Source: Algoriphagus pacificus
GTDB taxonomy: Bacteria; Bacteroidota; Bacteroidia; Cytophagales; Cyclobacteriaceae
Direction: 5' to 3'
NCBI RefSeq assembly: GCF_017254845.1
Contig: NZ_JAFKCU010000005.1
Coordinates: 124,001-188,000 of the forward strand
Length of the DNA stretch: 64,000 nucleotides
Part shown: piece by piece, positions 35,474-43,197 of the stretch
Position numbering within the stretch: position 1 is the first letter of the stretch
Layout of the letters: each line of letters starts with the position of its first letter
Translations under genes and position numbers: made by a program
The notes under the pieces: model-generated
Database searches by the model: none
Told to the model about the DNA's origin: nothing
Seen by the model: the letters and a program-made list of their open reading frames with translations, nothing else

Positions 35474-36826
35474 TTATTGAAATGGTCTCCAATTGACTAT
35501 TCCATTGATATGTATCATTTCCACCTTATTATACCGCTGCCTTGGGCTAAGAGCCTCATTTCCTAAGGCTTCTTTGTTCATCAGAATGATATGAAAATCC
35601 AAATCCTTTCTGTTTTTAGGTTTGTATTTAAGACCTAAATTAATTTGCCTGTAGGAAGGGAAACCATACTTATTAGCTGCTGCATCAGCCAGATCAGGCA
35701 ACCAATGAAAACCTATATGAAGGTATGGTCTTAGCCCAGTTTCCGGAATTTTATATTCAACATACCCTACTAGGGCATCAAGGCTTTCCATGCCTTCATT
35801 TCTCTCACGTGGTATAAATGTATACCAAGCATCTTTCCCCCATTCTCTTGGACTAAGCCATCGCCCTTGTCCGTCTAAATGTGTAAAGCTCAATGAAGTA
35901 TTCCAATTATTGACTTCATATCCTAGTTTGCCGGAAAGAACCCAGTTTTGGTCTGAGGGATCTTTATAGCTGAGTTTTGGATCATCATTTCCACCATTCC
36001 CTACTCCAACCTGATAGCCGATCTGAATTCCAGAAAACCATTTTTTAGCTGGATTATCATTTGGCCAGACTTTCTCTAGTTTTCCCCAGAGTGTGTTTGA
36101 AATATTCTGGACAAATGTTTCAGATAAACTGATCTTTCCTAATTTCTCGGTTTGATAAGCCAACTCCATAATTCCTATCCAGTCACTTGAAGTGTTATTT
36201 CGGTAGAAAGAGCTCTCTCCTGTCACATCCCTTCCAACTGGAAATACTCCGATGGACTCACCTATTCCCAGCCATTTGGAAGATCCCCTGACACTCATGC
36301 GATTGATTCCCCAAAGCCCAATTTTCCATTTTGGGTTCGGATTTATCCAAGTATGAATTCCCTCCACATAAGTTGGTGACAATCTTCCATCCTGCCCATT
36401 GATCCAATCGGTTTCAATATCCATCCGACCGAGAGTCACTCCCCAAGTATCTTTTGAATAGGATAAACTCAACCTTTCAAGCTTCCCAAAAAACTTATCC
36501 TCTGGGTTTAATAAGTCAAACAATCCTACTTCGTAGCGATTATCTAAACCCGATAATGGATCTGGAGACGTAAGGTCCGAACTCCAAAGGTTTCCAAAAA
36601 CTCGGTATCCGATCCTGAATTTCAACCTTTCGGCAAATGTGATCTGTGTCCCTAAATTCAAACTCGAACCTAGGGCAAAATCATTTTTAAAGTCAGTCGG
36701 ATAGCTGGTGCTCATCCAAAATATACGAAAATGGATATCCGGTACTATTTCTAGCTTTTTTTCAGTTTCCTGAGCCATGGCGAGAAAAGGTAGTACCAGG
36801 AATAATCCTAGTAGTAGCTTTCTCAT
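35474..36826 (-). CDS. Outer-membrane beta-barrel porin, partner of the diheme cytochrome
   Basis: 450 residues with signal peptide (MRKLLLGLFLVLPFLAMAQ). The mature part is a series of alternating amphipathic beta strands with aromatic girdles (for example RLSLSYSKDTWGVTLGRMDIE, KISLSETFVQNIS), ending in an aromatic strand (VNWRPF). This matches an outer-membrane porin of roughly OprD/alginate-porin style; the exact family is uncertain. Start overlaps the cytochrome stop by 4 bp, so they are translationally coupled and probably serve the same substrate. Confidence 0.7.
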   Translation of the reverse strand: MRKLLLGLFLVLPFLAMAQETEKKLEIVPDIHFRIFWMSTSYPTDFKNDFALGSSLNLGTQITFAERLKFRIGYRVFGNLWSSDLTSPDPLSGLDNRYEVGLFDLLNPEDKFFGKLERLSLSYSKDTWGVTLGRMDIETDWINGQDGRLSPTYVEGIHTWINPNPKWKIGLWGINRMSVRGSSKWLGIGESIGVFPVGRDVTGESSFYRNNTSSDWIGIMELAYQTEKLGKISLSETFVQNISNTLWGKLEKVWPNDNPAKKWFSGIQIGYQVGVGNGGNDDPKLSYKDPSDQNWVLSGKLGYEVNNWNTSLSFTHLDGQGRWLSPREWGKDAWYTFIPRERNEGMESLDALVGYVEYKIPETGLRPYLHIGFHWLPDLADAAANKYGFPSYRQINLGLKYKPKNRKDLDFHIILMNKEALGNEALSPRQRYNKVEMIHINGIVNWRPFQ

Positions 36827-37881
36827 TTTAGTTTGGCTATAGCTTCTTGAATAGGTTTGAAAGGACCGAATTTGTGCTGCTCCTCAGAGAAACTATCGGC
36901 ATATGGACCAAAGGGGTGATCCATTGGTTTTTTAGAGATATCAGGCCAGTCGTTTGGAAAATCCTTTTTCGGCCTATCCAGACTATTTACATAAGCCGCA
37001 ACATCCCAAGCTTCCTCATCACTTAGAATGGGGTTTTCATAGGTTGCCCCAAAAGGCATGTTAGCTCTCACATATCCAGCAAACCTGGACATTCTGAAAA
37101 GACCAGCTCCTTGATTGTAACTATGGTCTCCCCAAAGTGGTGGATAAGTATATCCCGATCCATCAGGTTTTGGAAGACCTTGTCCATCAGCCATATGACA
37201 GACCACGCATTCCTGTTCATAGATAGTTTTACCTTTCACTGGGTCAGCGGCTCTATCCAGCAACGGTACTTCGTAGATCCCAGCTCCTTTTGGTTTTTCA
37301 CCTTTGGGAACTCCTGTTCCTAGCCAGTTCATGTAAGCAACCATGGCAATCATTTCCTTACTATCAGCAGGAAGTGGATCGCCGTTGAGACTTCTTTCAA
37401 AACAGCCGTTGATTCTACTGACAACATCCTCTGATTTACCTGATCTTCCTCTGACTTTGGGATAAGTAGAGGCTACTGCAGAGTAGTTATTTCCCAAAGG
37501 AACCGTTCCTGCCTGAAGGTGGCAATTTTGACAGTTTAAGCCATTGGAGATCTTCTTAACTTTTCCGTTTGGGCCTAGATATTCGGCTGTATTGGCGATG
37601 AGTTCTTTTCCATATTTAATTGCATCTGCATCGGGAGATTCATCGACTTTACTCCAATCAGGAGCTTGCCACATACCAGCAGGATCCATTAAAGCAGTTG
37701 GCTTTGGAGTTTCTGGAATTGCAGAAACAAGAGGCGCATCTTCTTCCAAAGTAGGAAGTTGAACACCAGAAAAAGAGAAAAATAAGATGAATACGATGAT
37801 CCCTACCAGAAAACTGGAAAGCACCAATAAACCACTGATTAATGTGATTAACTGTAGAAAGGGTTTTCCTAGCTGTTTCAT
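36823..37881 (-). CDS. TsdA-like diheme cytochrome c (probable thiosulfate dehydrogenase)
   Basis: 352 residues with one N-terminal membrane helix (about 12-37). Two heme-binding sites, CQNCH (117-121) and CVVCH (225-229). The segment between them, GRSGKSEDVVSRINGC(160)FERS, is the TsdA pattern in which the Cys is the unusual axial heme ligand. TsdA enzymes interconvert thiosulfate and tetrathionate. Supporting context is a YeeE/YedE pair, an MBL-rhodanese protein and thioredoxin within 6 kb, and a shared promoter architecture. Co-translated with an outer-membrane porin. Family call good; direction of the reaction unknown. Confidence 0.8.
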   Translation of the reverse strand: MKQLGKPFLQLITLISGLLVLSSFLVGIIVFILFFSFSGVQLPTLEEDAPLVSAIPETPKPTALMDPAGMWQAPDWSKVDESPDADAIKYGKELIANTAEYLGPNGKVKKISNGLNCQNCHLQAGTVPLGNNYSAVASTYPKVRGRSGKSEDVVSRINGCFERSLNGDPLPADSKEMIAMVAYMNWLGTGVPKGEKPKGAGIYEVPLLDRAADPVKGKTIYEQECVVCHMADGQGLPKPDGSGYTYPPLWGDHSYNQGAGLFRMSRFAGYVRANMPFGATYENPILSDEEAWDVAAYVNSLDRPKKDFPNDWPDISKKPMDHPFGPYADSFSEEQHKFGPFKPIQEAIAKLK

Positions 37882-37898: not shown

Positions 37899-37943
37899 CA
37901 AAAATGCTCCAAGAATGATTGAAAAGCTGTGACAAGAATCACA
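37899..37943 (-). promoter_or_regulatory. Promoter of the cytochrome-porin operon with perfect Crp/Fnr-type site
   Basis: Perfect palindrome TGTGA-N6-TCACA (37928-37943). On the minus strand 21 bp follow, then a -7-like box CATTTTTG (37899-37906, one mismatch to TAnnTTTG), and the gene starts 18 bp later. The operator-to-box spacing is identical to the promoters at 42755-42799 and 43152-43197, and places the site centre near -42 (class II activation position). Confidence 0.65.
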
Positions 37944-37965
37944 TCTGCTGCTTGACTTACTAATA

Positions 37966-38682
37966 TTAACTGGCAGAAGCCAAAAAAACGAGTTTTTCTC
38001 CGATTTTTCCTTGGAACAAAAATTCATTAAGGCTTTGAAACATTTCTAATTCAACCAAATCTCCAAGCCTACATTCCGCTTGGAAATTGATGAGGAACTG
38101 ACTGAAATCAATGCCCTTTTCTCGAAGGATGTTTTCTACCCAAAGAATATAACTGGTATTGTTCACATGATCATAAAGATCCAAATCAGAATAGCGCACC
38201 CGAACCAATTCTTTAGCGATAAGCTCTCCCTGAATTTTAACTTTATCAGGTTGCCACTCGGGCCTTTCCAAGGGATCAAATAGATGTGCCGGCAAAACAA
38301 CCTCTGGACGCATAGGTCTTTTGCTTTCAGTATTTAGCAAAAGGTAGGAAGACATACACTGTGCTAGGACTTTATCGTCTTCATCAGTAATTAAAAACTC
38401 ACGAAAAGCAAATAGCTTCTCTACTCCTCTTCCTGCAGTAAAAACCTTCACTTTTTGACCCCAAGTGGGAAGATCAAAACAATGAAAATCCAACCTGGCA
38501 AGTACCCACATTTGTTGATTTTCCAGAAGGTTCCTTCCGAAATCCGCAGAATCTGCATGAGACCAGGAAGTTTCCTGAAAAAGATCCGCCAGACTAGTCA
38601 ACCGGATTTTTCCATCGGGATGCACCTGAAATGATCCGATTTCAAAATCCTTTTCATGCTGAAAACTGGAGGAGTGGCTCAT
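37966..38682 (-). CDS. Acyl-ACP thioesterase
   Basis: 238 residues, two hot-dog folds as in bacterial FatA/FatB-type enzymes. Early segment FEIGSFQVHPDGKIRLTSLADLFQE, the catalytic-type segment VRYSDLDLYDHVNNTSY (Asp, Asn and His pattern), and the strand WVLARLDFHCFDLPTW. Hydrolyses acyl-ACP to free fatty acid, ending chain elongation. Its start overlaps the MFS stop (4 bp, ATGA), so the two are co-transcribed. A link to the adjacent sulfur genes is not evident. Confidence 0.8.
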   Translation of the reverse strand: MSHSSSFQHEKDFEIGSFQVHPDGKIRLTSLADLFQETSWSHADSADFGRNLLENQQMWVLARLDFHCFDLPTWGQKVKVFTAGRGVEKLFAFREFLITDEDDKVLAQCMSSYLLLNTESKRPMRPEVVLPAHLFDPLERPEWQPDKVKIQGELIAKELVRVRYSDLDLYDHVNNTSYILWVENILREKGIDFSQFLINFQAECRLGDLVELEMFQSLNEFLFQGKIGEKLVFLASAS

Positions 38683-39851
38683 GAAGCTTTTACAGTTTTG
38701 ACTTTCGGAGGTATTAAGAAAACTGCTTTTCTGAAACTGGACAGCAAAGTGATTCCTAAAGCACTTACTGCAACCATTGCAAATGATATTTTCAGGTTAA
38801 ATAAATCGGCAATGAACCCGATCAAGGGAGGTCCCAGCAAAAAACCAAAAAAGGAAATAGTCGATACAATAGCCAATGCAACACTTGGAGTGTAAAGTTT
38901 CGATCTCCCAGCAATACTGTATGAAAGTGGAATAATTGATGCCACTCCAAAACCCACTAAGAAAAATCCGAAAGTTGCCATCGGAACTGTAGGAAATAAA
39001 ACTGCTAAAGCCAAACCCGCAGAAATCAATAAACCACTTACTTGGATCACAGCAACTTTGGTATATCTCGCGGCGATTTTATCAGTGATAAATCTTCCGG
39101 AGGCCATGGTTCCCATAAAAGCCACATAGCCCAAAGCAATCAGGGAAGGGTCTGCCTGCACTACTTTTTTGAAATAAACTCCCGACCAGTCAAACATACA
39201 TCCCTCGCACATCATACCTAGAAAAGCGATCAAACTGATCCGCATCAATAAGGCGTCTGGTTTTTTCAACACCATTCCACCTTCTTTAGATGTGGCTTTT
39301 TGTTTGATAATATATCGCTGGGCAGAAAGGATAATGATAAATGAAATGAACATTACTATTCCATAGTGGGCTGCTGGTGATAAACCTAGAAAAATCATTA
39401 AGGCCCCTATTCCTGCACCTGTAAAGCCTGCCATACTCCAAAGTCCATGAAAACTGGCTAGGATGCTCTTTCCCATTTCATCTTCCAAAGCCAAAGCCTG
39501 AGTATTCAGGGAAATATTCATGGTGTTTCCTAACATTCCATATAGCACCAAAACGGGCACCAATAACCAAGTGCTAGGTGCCAAGCCAATTAATGGCAAG
39601 GTCATCGCGTAGGCACATGCTCCGATCATGATCACAATTCTGCTTCCAAACTGGTGAACAGCCCAACCGGCAATTGGTAATCCAATTACGGAACCCATGG
39701 GTAAGAAGAGTAATAAAGTACCGAGTTGTCCTTCAGACAAATCAAATTTTGCCTGAATATCCGGTATTCTAGCAGCCCAGGAAGCAAAGCATAATCCTAC
39801 GAAAAAGAAAAAGGCCCCTAAGGCCACTCTGCGTTTGGAAAGGATGTTCAT
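38679..39851 (-). CDS. MFS transporter
   Basis: 390 residues, 12 predicted membrane helices. N-terminal LSKRRVALGAFFFFVGLCFASWAARIPDIQAKFDLSEGQLG with the helix-2/3 region GLPIAGWAVHQFGSRIVI resembles the YbjJ-like (fucose-permease-related) MFS subgroup. Substrate unknown. Upstream of, and overlapping, the acyl-ACP thioesterase gene. Confidence 0.82.
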   Translation of the reverse strand: MNILSKRRVALGAFFFFVGLCFASWAARIPDIQAKFDLSEGQLGTLLLFLPMGSVIGLPIAGWAVHQFGSRIVIMIGACAYAMTLPLIGLAPSTWLLVPVLVLYGMLGNTMNISLNTQALALEDEMGKSILASFHGLWSMAGFTGAGIGALMIFLGLSPAAHYGIVMFISFIIILSAQRYIIKQKATSKEGGMVLKKPDALLMRISLIAFLGMMCEGCMFDWSGVYFKKVVQADPSLIALGYVAFMGTMASGRFITDKIAARYTKVAVIQVSGLLISAGLALAVLFPTVPMATFGFFLVGFGVASIIPLSYSIAGRSKLYTPSVALAIVSTISFFGFLLGPPLIGFIADLFNLKISFAMVAVSALGITLLSSFRKAVFLIPPKVKTVKAS

Positions 39852-39931
39852 GTAAGGATAGGTTGATAGGCTCCGAAATTTAGCAAGATTCGCTCAAAAT
39901 GACTTCATTTTAAGAGAAAGGAGGCTGAAAC

Positions 39932-39939
39932 TATTTTTG
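39932..39939 (+). promoter_or_regulatory. Putative -7 box for the 26-residue membrane ORF
   Basis: TATTTTTG fits TAnnTTTG exactly and lies 31 bp before the ATG at 39971. Confidence 0.4.
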
Positions 39940-39970
39940 ACCTTTGCTGTTATTCAATAAAATTTAGCCC

Positions 39971-40051
39971 ATGGAATTTGTCATTGTAGGAAGCATAATC
40001 ATCTGTATTATTTTTTTGATCCGATTTATTATCAGAAAGGTATTTGAATAA
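39971..40051 (+). CDS. Single-helix membrane microprotein (26 residues)
   Basis: ATG 39971 to TAA 40049: MEFVIVGSIIICIIFLIRFI followed by a basic end (IRKVFE). One hydrophobic helix of about 18 residues with a charged Arg/Lys C-terminus, so N-out/C-in by the positive-inside rule. Supported by its own -7 box at 39932 and a terminator directly after the stop. Function unknown. It sits between the divergent MFS gene and the convergent YeeE/YedE genes. Confidence 0.5.
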   Translation: MEFVIVGSIIICIIFLIRFIIRKVFE

Positions 40052-40086
40052 AAAAGCCGCTTTCCTTTACAGAAAACGGCTTTTCT
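40052..40086. terminator. Bidirectional terminator between microprotein and YeeE/YedE genes
   Basis: AAAAAGCCG ... CGGCTTTTC hairpin with an imperfect inner stem (CTTTCC / GAAAA), A-run on one side and T-run on the other. Confidence 0.75.
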
Positions 40087-40100
40087 ATATTTAAGCATTT

Positions 40101-40586
40101 TTAATTCGGCAATTTGTCTGAAAACTTTCCATAAACCCATGTGCCTGCAATGGCTGAAAGTAGGGTGACAAAAACAACCGTAAATCCGCTTCCAATTTGA
40201 GCAAACAAAGGTCCAGGACAAGCTCCGGTAATTGCCCAACCTAAGCCGAAGATAAAACCTCCTATAATCTGACCTTTTCTAAATTCTTTATTTGGAATCT
40301 TTACAGTCTCACCTGAAATGGTTTTGATCCCGAATCGCTTGATGATCTGAATCGAAATAATTCCAGTGACAATTGCAGAACCGATTACTCCATACATATG
40401 GAAGGACTGCAGTCTGAACATCTCCTGAATTCTGAACCAGGAAATGATTTCAGCTTTGACAAATATGATCCCGAAGAGAATACCAATGATGATATACTTC
40501 ACCAAAGCAAGGCCTTTCTCTATATTTTCCTGAGAGTTTGGTGCATCACAAACTTCAGCTTTTATATCTTTTTCTACTACTTGCAT
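40101..40586 (-). CDS. YeeE/YedE-type thiosulfate/sulfur transporter, second half
   Basis: 161 residues, four predicted helices. The conserved GLGWAITGACPGP segment carries the key Cys of the YeeE/YedE (TsuA) family, which conducts thiosulfate through cysteine-lined membrane pores. It is the shorter subunit of a split pair; the 193-residue partner gene lies 11 bp upstream. N-terminal 20 residues are polar (DIKAEVCDAPNSQENIEKG). Confidence 0.85.
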   Translation of the reverse strand: MQVVEKDIKAEVCDAPNSQENIEKGLALVKYIIIGILFGIIFVKAEIISWFRIQEMFRLQSFHMYGVIGSAIVTGIISIQIIKRFGIKTISGETVKIPNKEFRKGQIIGGFIFGLGWAITGACPGPLFAQIGSGFTVVFVTLLSAIAGTWVYGKFSDKLPN

Positions 40587-40597
40587 TTCCTATCAGT

Positions 40598-41179
40598 TTA
40601 AAATCCCACAAGTTTCATCAAAGGCTCCATCATAAGATGGGTCATCAAAAAGCCTCCCAACATAAAGAAGATAGTAGCCACTAGAGAAGGCCACTGAAGG
40701 GAGCTGATCCCCATAATCGCATGTCCCGAAGTACATCCTCCCGCATAGCGCGTTCCGAAACCTACCATAAAACCTCCAATCACAAAGAACAAAAGCCCTT
40801 TTGCTGTGAAGAGGTTAGACCATGTGAAAATATCAGAAGGCATTAATCCTGAGAAACTGCTGATGCCAATAGCATTTAGATCTGCTTTGGTTTGTTCTGC
40901 AATTACAATCTCATTTGGATTTGAGATAAATTGAGTGGCTAGAAATCCCCCAATCAATACTCCCAAAACAAACATGAGATTCCACATTTCCTTTTTCCAG
41001 TTGTAGGTGAAAAAAGGAATACCAGCCGGTACGCAGATGGCACAGGCATGACGCAAGGAAGAGGAGATCCCAAAGGTTTTATTCCCCACCAACAGCAAGG
41101 TCGGCACTGTTAGACCAATGAGCGGGCCTGCTACATACCATGGCCAAGGTTGGGTAATCCAGTCCATAAATTGATTCAT
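40598..41179 (-). CDS. YeeE/YedE-type thiosulfate/sulfur transporter, first half
   Basis: 193 residues, about five helices. Conserved Cys motifs [14 protein letters not shown] and [20 protein letters not shown], the latter a hallmark of YeeE/YedE. Together with the following 161-residue gene it probably makes a two-subunit sulfur-compound importer; in TsuA both halves are one protein. Preceded by a terminator-like hairpin after the MBL-rhodanese gene. Confidence 0.87.
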
Positions 41180-41230
41180 ATATTTCAGTTTTTTTAAAAG
41201 AACAAGTTAAAGGCACCTAATAAGAAGAAA

Positions 41231-41258
41231 AACGGCAAGTCTGAGACTTGCCATTTTT
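41231..41258 (-). terminator. Hairpin between the MBL-rhodanese and YeeE/YedE genes
   Basis: GGCAAGTC-TGA-GACTTGCC (41234-41252) followed on the minus strand by GTTTTTC. It can terminate or attenuate transcription from the MBL gene into the transporter genes. Confidence 0.7.
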
Positions 41259-41297
41259 GGGATTAAGCAACTTTTCTCAATTTCAATTTACTCAAAT

Positions 41298-42719
41298 TCA
41301 AAGCAAAGTAGTTGGACAAACGTAATCTGTAACTTTGAATTTTTCCGAATCTTTAATGGCTTTGAATCCGCCATTTATATCGATAAGGTTATCATATCCA
41401 CGAGCTCTTAAGATTGAGTTGAATACCATGGATCGGTAGCCACCCGCACAATGCACATAATATGTTTTATCCTTATTTATTTTCAGCATGCTTTCATTGA
41501 TGTAATCCAAAGGAGCATTCTCAGCATCAACAACATGTTCAGAGAGATATTCACTGTTTTTTCTCACATCAACAATGTTGATATCAGGATTCTCAGCTTG
41601 TCTTTTTGCAAGCTCTTCTGCTGAGATGGATTCGATCTGGTCGATTTCATGACCTGATTTCTTCCAGGCATCAATTCCTCCATCCAAGTATCCAATTGCA
41701 TAATCATAGCCTACTCTTGCAAGTCTAGTAATTACTTCTTCTTCTCTTCCTTCATCAGCTACCACCAAGATCTCTTGTTTCAAGTCAGGAATCATAGCTC
41801 CAACCCACACCGCAAAGCTTCCATCGATTCCGATATTTACTGAGTTAGGAACAAATCCCTTTGCAAATACCTGAGGTGCTCTAGTATCCAAAATCAAGGC
41901 GCCAGTTTCATTTGCTGCTGCTTCAAATTGAGCTGGAGTCAAAGGCTTCACACCTCTTTCCAAAACTGAATCAATGCTATCATATCCTTGGATATTCATC
42001 ATCACATTCTGAGGGAAATAAGCCGGAGGAGGAGTCAATCCTGTAATTACTTCTTTGATAAACTCTTCTTTGGTCATCTCCTGAAGTGCATAATTGGTCT
42101 TCTTTTGATTTCCAAGCGTATCTGAAGTCTCTTTGCTCATGTTTTTGCCACAGGCAGAACCAGCTCCGTGTGCAGGATAAACAATCAAATCATCTGGTAA
42201 TGGCATGATCTTATTTCTCAAAGAGTCATACAAGTGACCAGCTAATTTTTCCTGAGTCAAATCTTTAACTACTTTTTGAGCCAAATCAGGTCTTCCTACA
42301 TCCCCGATAAACAAGGTATCTCCTGTGAAAATTGCTTCTGGATTTCCTTCCTCATTATAAAGCAAGTAACAAGAACTCTCCATCGTATGACCCGGAGTGT
42401 GGATCACTTTTACTTTTGCTTTACCGATTTGGAATTCCTGACCATCTTCTGCTACGATCGCATCAAAACCCATTTTCATGGTTGTTGGACCGTAAATAAT
42501 TGGGGCTCCGGTTTTAGCGGATAAATCCTGGTGACCAGAAACAAAGTCTGCATGGAAATGCGTTTCAAAAACATATTTGATTTTGGCATTTCTTCTCTCA
42601 GCTTTTTCAATGTATGGCTGAACCTCTCTTAACGGATCGATGACAGCTGCTTCTCCATCTGATTCAATGTAGTAAGCTCCTTGTGCTAGACAGCCTGTAT
42701 AGATTTGCTCGATTTTCAT
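41298..42719 (-). CDS. MBL-fold hydrolase fused to two rhodanese domains (persulfide dioxygenase type)
   Basis: 473 residues: metallo-beta-lactamase domain (about 1-245) with ETHFHADFVSGH, the TPGHTMES His and GDTLFIGDVGRPDL Asp typical of ETHE1-like persulfide dioxygenases, then two rhodanese domains. The first (about 265-360) has no active-site Cys (VADEGREEE); the second (about 375-465) has an active loop HCAGGYRS. It likely oxidises glutathione-type persulfide and transfers sulfane sulfur. Neighbours (thioredoxin, YeeE/YedE) and the shared operator fit a sulfur-oxidation role. Confidence 0.87.
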   Translation of the reverse strand: MKIEQIYTGCLAQGAYYIESDGEAAVIDPLREVQPYIEKAERRNAKIKYVFETHFHADFVSGHQDLSAKTGAPIIYGPTTMKMGFDAIVAEDGQEFQIGKAKVKVIHTPGHTMESSCYLLYNEEGNPEAIFTGDTLFIGDVGRPDLAQKVVKDLTQEKLAGHLYDSLRNKIMPLPDDLIVYPAHGAGSACGKNMSKETSDTLGNQKKTNYALQEMTKEEFIKEVITGLTPPPAYFPQNVMMNIQGYDSIDSVLERGVKPLTPAQFEAAANETGALILDTRAPQVFAKGFVPNSVNIGIDGSFAVWVGAMIPDLKQEILVVADEGREEEVITRLARVGYDYAIGYLDGGIDAWKKSGHEIDQIESISAEELAKRQAENPDINIVDVRKNSEYLSEHVVDAENAPLDYINESMLKINKDKTYYVHCAGGYRSMVFNSILRARGYDNLIDINGGFKAIKDSEKFKVTDYVCPTTLL

Positions 42720-42754
42720 ATGATTCTATTTTTTATTCTTTTCTAAATTTGATT

Positions 42755-42799
42755 CAAAAGTAAACTGTGTCTGATGATTCCTAAATGACTTTTGTCACA
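42755..42799 (-). promoter_or_regulatory. Promoter of the MBL-rhodanese gene with Crp/Fnr-like site
   Basis: Minus strand: TGTGA-CAAAAG-TCATT (42784-42799, 8 of 10 palindrome bases), 21 bp, then an exact -7 box TACTTTTG (42755-42762), then 35 bp to the ATG. Same operator-to-box spacing as the cytochrome and thioredoxin promoters. Confidence 0.65.
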
Positions 42800-42805
42800 T
42801 TGGCA

Positions 42806-43126
42806 TCAGGCATTACTCAGAATGTTTGATTGGATTGTCTGTACCAACTGATGCGCTGGAACCACTCCTGATTGTCTCCAAAGGATTTTGCCTTGTTGAA
42901 ACAGGATCAAAGTTGGCACCCCTCTCACTTGAAATTTACTGGCAGCCAAAGGATTCTTATCTACATCCACTTTTAGAATTTTCACCTTGTCTCCTAATTG
43001 ACGGGCAGTGTCTTCCAAAATTGGATGCATCATTTTGCATGGGCCACACCAAGTTGCAGTGAAATCTACCAAAACCGGTTGTTCTCCATTTATTAAATCC
43101 TGAAAACTTTTTGCTTGTCCACTCAT
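42806..43126 (-). CDS. trxA: Thioredoxin
   Basis: 106 residues from ATG 43126. Active site WCGPC (Cys27, Cys30), cis-Pro in RGVPTLILF. The longer frame starting at 43153 is ruled out: a perfect -7 box overlaps that ATG, so transcription would begin after it. Reduces disulfides, and in this context may reduce the persulfide or thiosulfate-derived sulfur handled by the neighbouring MBL-rhodanese protein. Nearly complete single-domain length. Confidence 0.92.
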   Translation of the reverse strand: MSGQAKSFQDLINGEQPVLVDFTATWCGPCKMMHPILEDTARQLGDKVKILKVDVDKNPLAASKFQVRGVPTLILFQQGKILWRQSGVVPAHQLVQTIQSNILSNA

Positions 43127-43151
43127 AACTATGATATTTAAGTAACACAAC

Positions 43152-43197
43152 AAAAGTACAGGTACATTCAGTTCTTTACAGTAATTTTTATCACAAA
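43152..43197 (-). promoter_or_regulatory. Promoter of thioredoxin gene with Crp/Fnr-like site
   Basis: Minus strand: TGTGA-TAAAAA-TTACT (43182-43197), 21 bp, then exact -7 box TACTTTTG (43152-43159), 25 bp before ATG 43126. The right half-site is degenerate, but the left half and spacing equal those of the other two sulfur promoters. Confidence 0.6.

Follow-up and report, generated by a model that had tools for sequence, protein, structure and literature searches.

Sulfur genes and predicted operators in the window

The window analysed here, a 64,000-nucleotide stretch of Algoriphagus pacificus DNA (contig NZ_JAFKCU010000005.1; C38:124001-188000 of the genome), carries on its minus strand genes for a TsdA-like cytochrome, a metallo-beta-lactamase-rhodanese (MBL-rhodanese) protein and a thioredoxin, each preceded by a -7 box and a site resembling the Crp/Fnr operator TGTGA-N6-TCACA. 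The candidate regulon to which these promoters would belong, and its putative regulator, are described below. The features concerned are:

37928-37943, minus strand: predicted operator TGTGATTCTTGTCACA in the promoter of the TsdA-like gene, read directly; a perfect 5+5 inverted repeat
37899-37906, minus strand: -7 box CATTTTTG of the TsdA-like gene, 21 bp after operator TGTGATTCTTGTCACA
36823-37881, minus strand: TsdA/SoxA-family cytochrome c gene (PF21342 and PF00034 above cut-off)
42784-42799, minus strand: predicted operator TGTGACAAAAGTCATT in the MBL-rhodanese promoter, asymmetric; read directly and found in the genome search
42755-42762, minus strand: -7 box TACTTTTG of the MBL-rhodanese gene, 21 bp after operator TGTGACAAAAGTCATT
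41298-42719, minus strand: gene for a metallo-beta-lactamase with two rhodanese domains, persulfide dioxygenase/sulfurtransferase type
43180-43195, minus strand: predicted operator TGTGATAAAAATTACT in the thioredoxin promoter, read directly and found in the genome search
43151-43158, minus strand: -7 box TACTTTTG of the thioredoxin gene, 21 bp after operator TGTGATAAAAATTACT
42806-43126, minus strand: thioredoxin gene (TIGR01068 above cut-off)

The original prediction had placed one site upstream of each of these genes, and all three are present, except that the third lies at 43180-43195 and not at 43182-43197, i.e. 2 bp off. The distance of exactly 21 bp between operator and box holds for all three promoters of the present genome, whereas relatives in the genus have either 21 or 22 bp. 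The TsdA-like site, described as a perfect palindrome, showed 0 mismatches in the TGTGA-N6-TCACA search. The second site matches 8 of the 10 consensus letters, as had been stated, while the third, thought to be degenerate on one side, is no worse, with 8 of 10 likewise. The TsdA box CATTTTTG differs from TAnnTTTG by one letter.

Conservation of the sites in the genus

Upstream regions of the orthologous genes were compared in the best 30 loci per gene search, out of 55 and 58 genomes with a match and with the own genome included. Operator and box were found at all three promoters in 30 of the 30 genomes per gene, at a spacing of 21 or 22 bp (N21 or N22) in 17 and 13 genomes for thioredoxin, 10 and 20 for TsdA, and 30 and 0 for MBL-rhodanese. 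None of the eight core half-site letters varies over the 30 genomes, the outermost letters are conserved at 0.80-1.0 and the spacer at a mean of 0.41-0.55, although the half-site identity is partly one of choice, because the sites were taken as the best match to the consensus. Mean mismatches at other spacings served as the control: 2.2 at N21 versus 4.6-6.4 elsewhere for MBL-rhodanese, 3.5 at N21 and 4.3 at N22 versus 4.6-6.5 for thioredoxin, and 2.6 at N21 and 2.2 at N22 versus 3.1-5.1 for TsdA. The inverted repeat of the TsdA promoter is perfect in 23 genomes and has one mismatch in the other 7, around 15 different central hexamers, and the C of its box CATTTTTG is also the prevailing letter at this position across the genus (0.9).

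That the three window sites are chance look-alikes might be argued from the second and third site, each with only 8/10 consensus letters, and from the abundance of loose matches in the genome (70 versus 35 in the control at three mismatches). Such an origin was rejected on the conservation in the genus, given the presence in 30/30 genomes per promoter around freely varying spacers, and the family-wide spacing peak described below also contradicts it, so that chance is highly improbable.

As a separate observation, the MBL-rhodanese operator at 42784-42799 is nearly frozen, with only 4 variants in the 30 genomes, its centre included, despite one off-consensus half. An additional binding protein or an overlapping signal is possible at this site.

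Occurrence of the motif in the own genome

The perfect TGTGA-N6-TCACA sequence occurs 4 times in the 5.28-Mb genome: in the TsdA-like promoter, upstream of a methyltransferase gene, in a terminator-like hairpin and within a susC-like gene (by eye). The perfect site of the S-adenosylmethionine-dependent methyltransferase also lies 21 bp from a box-like GAGATTTG. The pattern TGTGA-N6-TNA followed at near spacing by TANNTTTG gave 3 genome matches, including the MBL-rhodanese and thioredoxin sites, versus 0 for the reversed-pattern control.

When up to two mismatches were allowed, 13 matches were obtained, 8 of them promoter-placed, in front of genes for the methyltransferase, the TsdA-like cytochrome, a Crp/Fnr-type regulator, a TauE protein, MBL-rhodanese, thioredoxin, a TlpA-like protein and a fatty-acid hydroxylase. 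The search for further sites thus led to sulfur and redox genes, as had been anticipated; no Hcp-like gene was found among the 13. The methyltransferase site (L018) is promoter-placed only with a later in-frame ATG, because a longer TTG-started frame covers it. Two other matches are doubtful: that of the fatty-acid hydroxylase (L026), where the message would be nearly leaderless, and that of the TlpA-like gene (L029), which lies ∼167 bp from the start codon. Four matches inside genes (L020, L024, L025, L030) and the one in the terminator-like hairpin (L021) were dismissed as noise. The reverse-half pattern gave two matches in the own genome, namely L369 and the coding match L030, the latter from its other half.

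Spacing and promoter geometry across the family

The spacing was then left free over 21 values in 148 genomes of the family. N21 accounted for 50 of the 150 matches listed, versus an average of 5.0 for each of the other 20 spacings, so that the spaced motif is enriched as a peak at N21. The pattern fixed at N21 gave 90 matches in 58/148 genomes versus 9 in the reversed control. Of these, 89 were fetched (G042:C18 was left out) and 88 were distinct by context. None of the 88 lies inside a same-strand open reading frame (ORF) of at least 150 aa, counted from the first ATG, and 4 lie in an opposite-strand ORF; where an ORF starts within 400 bp downstream, the start is no more than 150 bp away in 78/86 cases (median 31 bp). 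In a small parallel set, 9/10 N21 sites were promoter-like versus 5/21 at other spacings. The 13 N29 matches in the family list mostly represent one near-identical sequence (by eye). Among the 111 own-class matches listed for GTGA sites of the phylum, 35 were at N21, 23 at N22 and 12 at N29.

In the start-site map of Flavobacterium psychrophilum, as far as the consulted part of that source goes, the TAnnTTTG box occupies positions -12 to -5 (PMC9723704). Hence, by calculation from that map, the 16-mer operator would span -49 to -34 and be centred at -41.5, which agrees with the centre expected originally and with the spacing peaks. The sites fall under the predicted geometry of class II Crp/Fnr-dependent promoters, in which the operator lies over the -35 region.

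The geometry bears on the sign of the control. A regulator that represses or de-represses would be in keeping with the known persulfide regulators CstR and SqrR/BigR, which are repressors according to the sections of PMC9774590 consulted. However, -41.5 or -42.5 is where the operator of a class II activator is centred, and there is a sharp peak in spacing both for the GTGA matches listed (50/150 at N21) and for the GTAAC operators described below (77/106 at N21 or N22), while a repressor would need no such exact spacing. The conserved non-consensus box of the TsdA promoter also suits a promoter that needs help. Repression therefore seems improbable, and we infer activation instead.

The candidate regulator

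The genome contains 13 matches to the cyclic nucleotide monophosphate (cNMP)-binding domain, and ten short Crp/Fnr-type proteins were read. Only one of the ten, encoded at C12:950225-950881 and thus outside the window, has the CRP-like recognition helix R-E-x-x-x-R; its gene is also the only member of its group in the own genome at E≤1e-20, which accords with the original prediction of a single regulator encoded elsewhere, although some other genomes carry two or three group members. The protein has the domains of the Crp/Fnr superfamily (PF00027, 30.6 bits [27.5]; PF13545, 50.4 [27]; PF00325, 30.0 [21]; cut-offs in brackets), and its structure model shows a CRP fold with N-terminal strands. 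A two-mismatch site lies 15 bp before its own start codon, and a further near-consensus site precedes a TauE/SafE gene two genes away.

It might be supposed that the operators are real and that another Crp/Fnr protein (or several) of the genome binds them: the number of cNMP-binding-domain matches leaves room for this, and relatives have group paralogues with the same recognition helix. Nevertheless, this alternative is quite unlikely in view of the uniqueness of the C12 protein in helix and group membership, the near-consensus site in front of its gene and the fact that in other genomes its residue 184 tracks the type of operator, as detailed below.

A Crp/Fnr gene beside sulfur genes, which had been suggested as something to look for in relatives, was found at 58 of the 80 named regulator loci, where the fetched flank holds a sulfur-linked gene; the labels near the regulator in these 80 loci include 34 TauE, 26 MBL-rhodanese and 20 YeeE. 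At the 12 other cNMP loci of the own genome no sulfur-linked gene was seen within a 3.2-kb window, in which the C12 locus too shows only the regulator and UspA. Of 29 spacings examined in the 80 loci, the perfect operator with box shows 15 occurrences at N21, one at N20, one at N22 and two over all the others; with one mismatch in the operator the counts are 13 at N21, 12 at N22 and 9 elsewhere. Within the family, sites are present in 55 of the 128 genomes with a group member versus 3 of the 20 without (Fisher one-sided p 0.013).

Residues were counted in 74 homologues from the 80 loci (L244, L247, L253, L266 and L268 were left out, and L257 was dropped for a stop); alignment A2 comprises 64 of the 74. 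Cys78 is invariant (74/74), and Cys84 (73/74) and Cys85 (70/74) are almost so.

The same regulator and operator might also serve another signal, such as haem, nitric oxide, carbon monoxide or general redox state, with the sulfur genes lying within a wider thiol/respiratory response. A Crp/Fnr protein of another member of the Bacteroidota, PgRsp of Porphyromonas gingivalis (207 aa, with Cys76 and Met78), is a haem binder with a redox role according to the part of the source consulted, in which 3DV8 served as the template of its model (PMC6955866). The C12 regulator likewise has its best sequence match in 3DV8, and the link between the two proteins consists of these residue numbers and 3DV8. Peroxiredoxin, UspA, SufB, OsmC and CcmE are among the first genes behind N21 sites, as such a response would have it. 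On the other hand, targets and neighbours repeatedly include genes for persulfide, thiosulfate and sulfur transport functions, the three cysteines are conserved in the 74 homologues, and replacement of Cys76 left the haem spectra of PgRsp unchanged, as reported in the same part of the source (PMC6955866). A haem or redox signal is a possible reading, on balance an unlikely one. PgRsp itself is described there as a haem-binding oxidative-stress regulator, and the sections consulted describe no sulfur regulon or operator (PMC6955866).

Residue 184 and the type of operator

Of the 74 homologues, 54 have Glu and 20 have Val at residue 184, which aligns with Glu181 of CRP. The Val-type regulators share R-V-x-x-x-R with the cyanobacterial NtcA in the alignment. 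NtcA binds GTA-N8-TAC, which resembles GTAA-N6-TTAC, and serves nitrogen control with 2-oxoglutarate as ligand, unlike the role proposed for the present regulators. A preference of the Val type for TGTA-like sites was expected by analogy with NtcA before palindromes in front of the box were searched without a seed. In the 4+6+4 layout the top word was GTGA-N6-TCAC at Glu loci and GTAA-N6-TTAC at Val loci, both at 21 bp, while the 5+6+5 and 4+8+4 layouts gave no palindrome peak. At N21/N22 the Glu loci have 14 GTGA and 4 GTAA sites, and the Val loci 20 GTAA and 0 GTGA. The genes behind both operator types are alike (TauE, MBL-rhodanese, SulP, rhodanese and the regulator).

Throughout 395 genomes of the phylum, GTAAC-N4-GTTAC with box gave 106 matches, 68 at N21 and 9 at N22, versus a mean of 1.5 for the other 19 spacings. 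When 31 GTAAC sites were read, labelled families followed 16/22 at N21/N22 versus 0/9 at other spacings; for these sites as for the GTGA N21 sites, many of the gene labels were seeded from the list of GTGA N21 sites. Labels seeded only from the window and the own genome (TsdA, YeeE, MBL-rhodanese, thioredoxin, Crp, UspA and TlpA) follow 28/88 of the GTGA N21 sites.

A second set matters because the relatedness of the 74 proteins limits the count. It consists of 40 stretches around sites, picked by eye in 28 genomes; 31 of them lack a group gene, and one (L440) lacks an N21/N22 site. The 11 regulator genes it contains, in 9 stretches and five families, have a residue 184 that fits the nearby operator in 11/11 cases, and three genomes of the set carry both regulator types, each adjoining its own type of operator. 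A difference in operator between Glu184 and Val184 regulators is thus supported by comparison of the predicted sites. The change of CRP Glu181 to Val is reported (Ebright and co-workers, 1984) to shift the preference from TGTGA towards TGTAA. The CRP mutants were made in the laboratory, whereas Glu184/Val184 is a natural difference that goes with the same letter change as reported for them.

Several observations weigh against the interpretation developed so far. In the own genome the strict pattern GTGA-N6-TCAC-N22-TANNTTTG has 0 matches, because each candidate is 1-2 letters off, and with up to three mismatches there are 70 matches versus 35 in the reversed control, so that loose matches are mostly noise. 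Summed over all 21 spacings the enrichment in the family is modest (257 versus 152 in the reversed control), and the signal is therefore the N21 peak; likewise, the GTAAC matches of the phylum summed over spacings number 106 versus about 77 in the control. Only 58/148 family genomes hold a strict site though 128 have a group member, and 3/20 without such a member still carry a site. No labelled sulfur gene lies near the regulator at 22/80 named loci. Paralogues beside YgaP-like transmembrane genes keep Cys78 alone; a three-cysteine sensor therefore cannot apply to the whole group. As regards the pairing of residue and operator, a strict site of the own type lies within the flank at only 11/54 Glu and 14/20 Val loci, next to 4/54 and 0/20 with the other type. 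Four Algoriphagus TauE promoters (L230, L231, L239, L240) have GTAAC...GTTAC at 22 bp despite a Glu-type regulator, and hence the pairing is not absolute. One GTAAC site of the 22 stands in front of a gene that by eye is Hcp-like, and this site is likely one of HcpR. Finally, Val184 needs one change in the tree of 74 proteins, so that the switch may be a single event.

Neighbouring and downstream genes

Three further genes of the window adjoin the predicted targets:

40598-41179, minus strand: YeeE/YedE-type (Sulf_transp) membrane protein, first of a pair (PF04143)
40101-40586, minus strand: YeeE/YedE-type (Sulf_transp/DUF6691) membrane protein, second of the pair (domain match)
35474-36826, minus strand: predicted outer-membrane protein of 450 aa (by eye), whose start overlaps the stop of the TsdA-like gene

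The first YeeE/YedE-type gene forms a probable operon with the MBL-rhodanese gene; its product matches the model of the thiosulfate transporter TsuA weakly (41.5 bits, cut-off 400). For the MBL-rhodanese protein itself, the solved relatives 3tp9 and 3r2u cover residues 3-456 of 473. The outer-membrane protein has no Pfam or NCBIfam match; it is probably co-transcribed with the TsdA-like gene and is a candidate partner of its product.

Among labelled first genes behind GTGA N21 sites, that of a small YgaP-like transmembrane protein (DUF2892, labelled YgaP-like_TM) is the most frequent, with 9/88 (L152, L154, L164, L176, L178, L184, L187, L189, L190). Together with L128, L169 and L185 these make up twelve loci, and ten of the twelve have a regulator paralogue with one cysteine nearby.

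Outer-membrane efflux genes of the OEP/TolC type are often first as well, at 7/88 GTGA sites (L136, L137, L138, L139, L142, L144, L173) and 6/22 GTAAC N21/N22 sites (L382, L389, L394, L397, L398, L400). Two GTAAC N21 sites (L371 and L372) precede an Hcp-like gene and a small, possibly metal-binding gene (by eye). These may be targets of HcpR, in which case the GTAAC operator would be common to different Crp/Fnr regulators. HcpR is a Crp/Fnr regulator of Bacteroidota that may share GTAAC-like sites with the Val-type regulators; it is a haem-based sensor of nitrosative stress, as far as the part of the source consulted describes it, unlike the sulfur role proposed here.

Proposed mechanism and relation to known systems

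According to the model proposed, a single activator of the Crp/Fnr family, the product of C12:950225-950881, would bind TGTGA-N6-TCACA-like operators centred at -41.5 (-42.5 in relatives) ahead of a TAnnTTTG-like box, covering the place where a -33 element would sit, and would activate in class II fashion genes that oxidise, transport and reduce sulfane sulfur. The putative targets are the TsdA-like cytochrome, MBL-rhodanese with the YeeE pair, thioredoxin, TauE/SafE, the methyltransferase, the regulator's own gene and perhaps the TlpA-like protein. Persulfide, polysulfide or another thiol-reactive sulfur species is proposed as the signal, which would act on Cys78, Cys84 and Cys85, predicted to sit at the place where CRP binds the phosphate of cyclic AMP (cAMP).

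That the C12 regulator acts as the class II activator of a regulon which handles sulfane sulfur is considered probable. The operator, its position, the pairing of regulator and operator and the content of the regulon are supported by comparison between genomes, while the identity of the inducer and the cysteine chemistry are put forward as a hypothesis. The original idea that thiosulfate oxidation, persulfide oxidation and thioredoxin genes are controlled together is supported by the predicted arrangement, with sites conserved in the genus and a regulator group represented once in the genome. The predicted circuit, whose regulators would form a distinct subfamily of Crp/Fnr, appears to recur in many other Bacteroidota.

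In comparison with Escherichia coli CRP, the regulator scores 51 bits on PRK11753, below the cut-off of 266 for a CRP equivalog, and in the profile alignment CRP Glu72 faces a gap, with cysteines around the cAMP phosphate site. The predicted class II activation is alike; the sulfur regulon and the Bacteroidota promoter box differ. The MBL-rhodanese and TauE targets resemble cst genes. The logic of the regulon is also like that of CstR and the cst operon of Staphylococcus aureus, a persulfide-responsive control of sulfurtransferase and persulfide genes in the sections of the source consulted (PMC9774590), except that CstR is an all-helical tetrameric repressor of the CsoR family, whereas the present regulator has the CRP fold and Crp-type domains and is probably an activator. 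FisR of Cupriavidus and SqrR/BigR of the ArsR family belong to other protein families and, according to the same sections, respond to sulfane sulfur via conserved cysteines (PMC9774590); SqrR/BigR repress, in contrast to the activation suggested here. A persulfidated Crp-like protein is known from Acinetobacter, as stated in the part of the source consulted (PMC7315123). A literature search revealed no account of how Bacteroidota sense thiosulfate and persulfides, nor of a Crp/Fnr protein that controls the corresponding genes there, a weak negative, as it covered openly licensed papers and the spelling "Crp/Fnr" was probably missed in part.

A broader proposal is somewhat favoured, namely that Bacteroidota have an undescribed family of thiol-based Crp/Fnr activators responding to sulfane sulfur, in which the phosphate site has been turned into a CX5CC sensor and an ancient Glu184/Val184 change has given rise to two insulated circuits, TGTGA and (T)GTAA, able to coexist in one cell. 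If true, these circuits would parallel, in nature, the classic specificity mutants of CRP. The Glu/Val pair offers a naturally occurring example in which regulator and operator differ in a matching way. For thiosulfate and persulfide sensing in Bacteroidota, the analysis names a candidate regulator and its predicted operator and gives the favoured promoter geometry together with a list of putative targets, and the motif with its spacing would help to predict sulfur-handling genes throughout the phylum.

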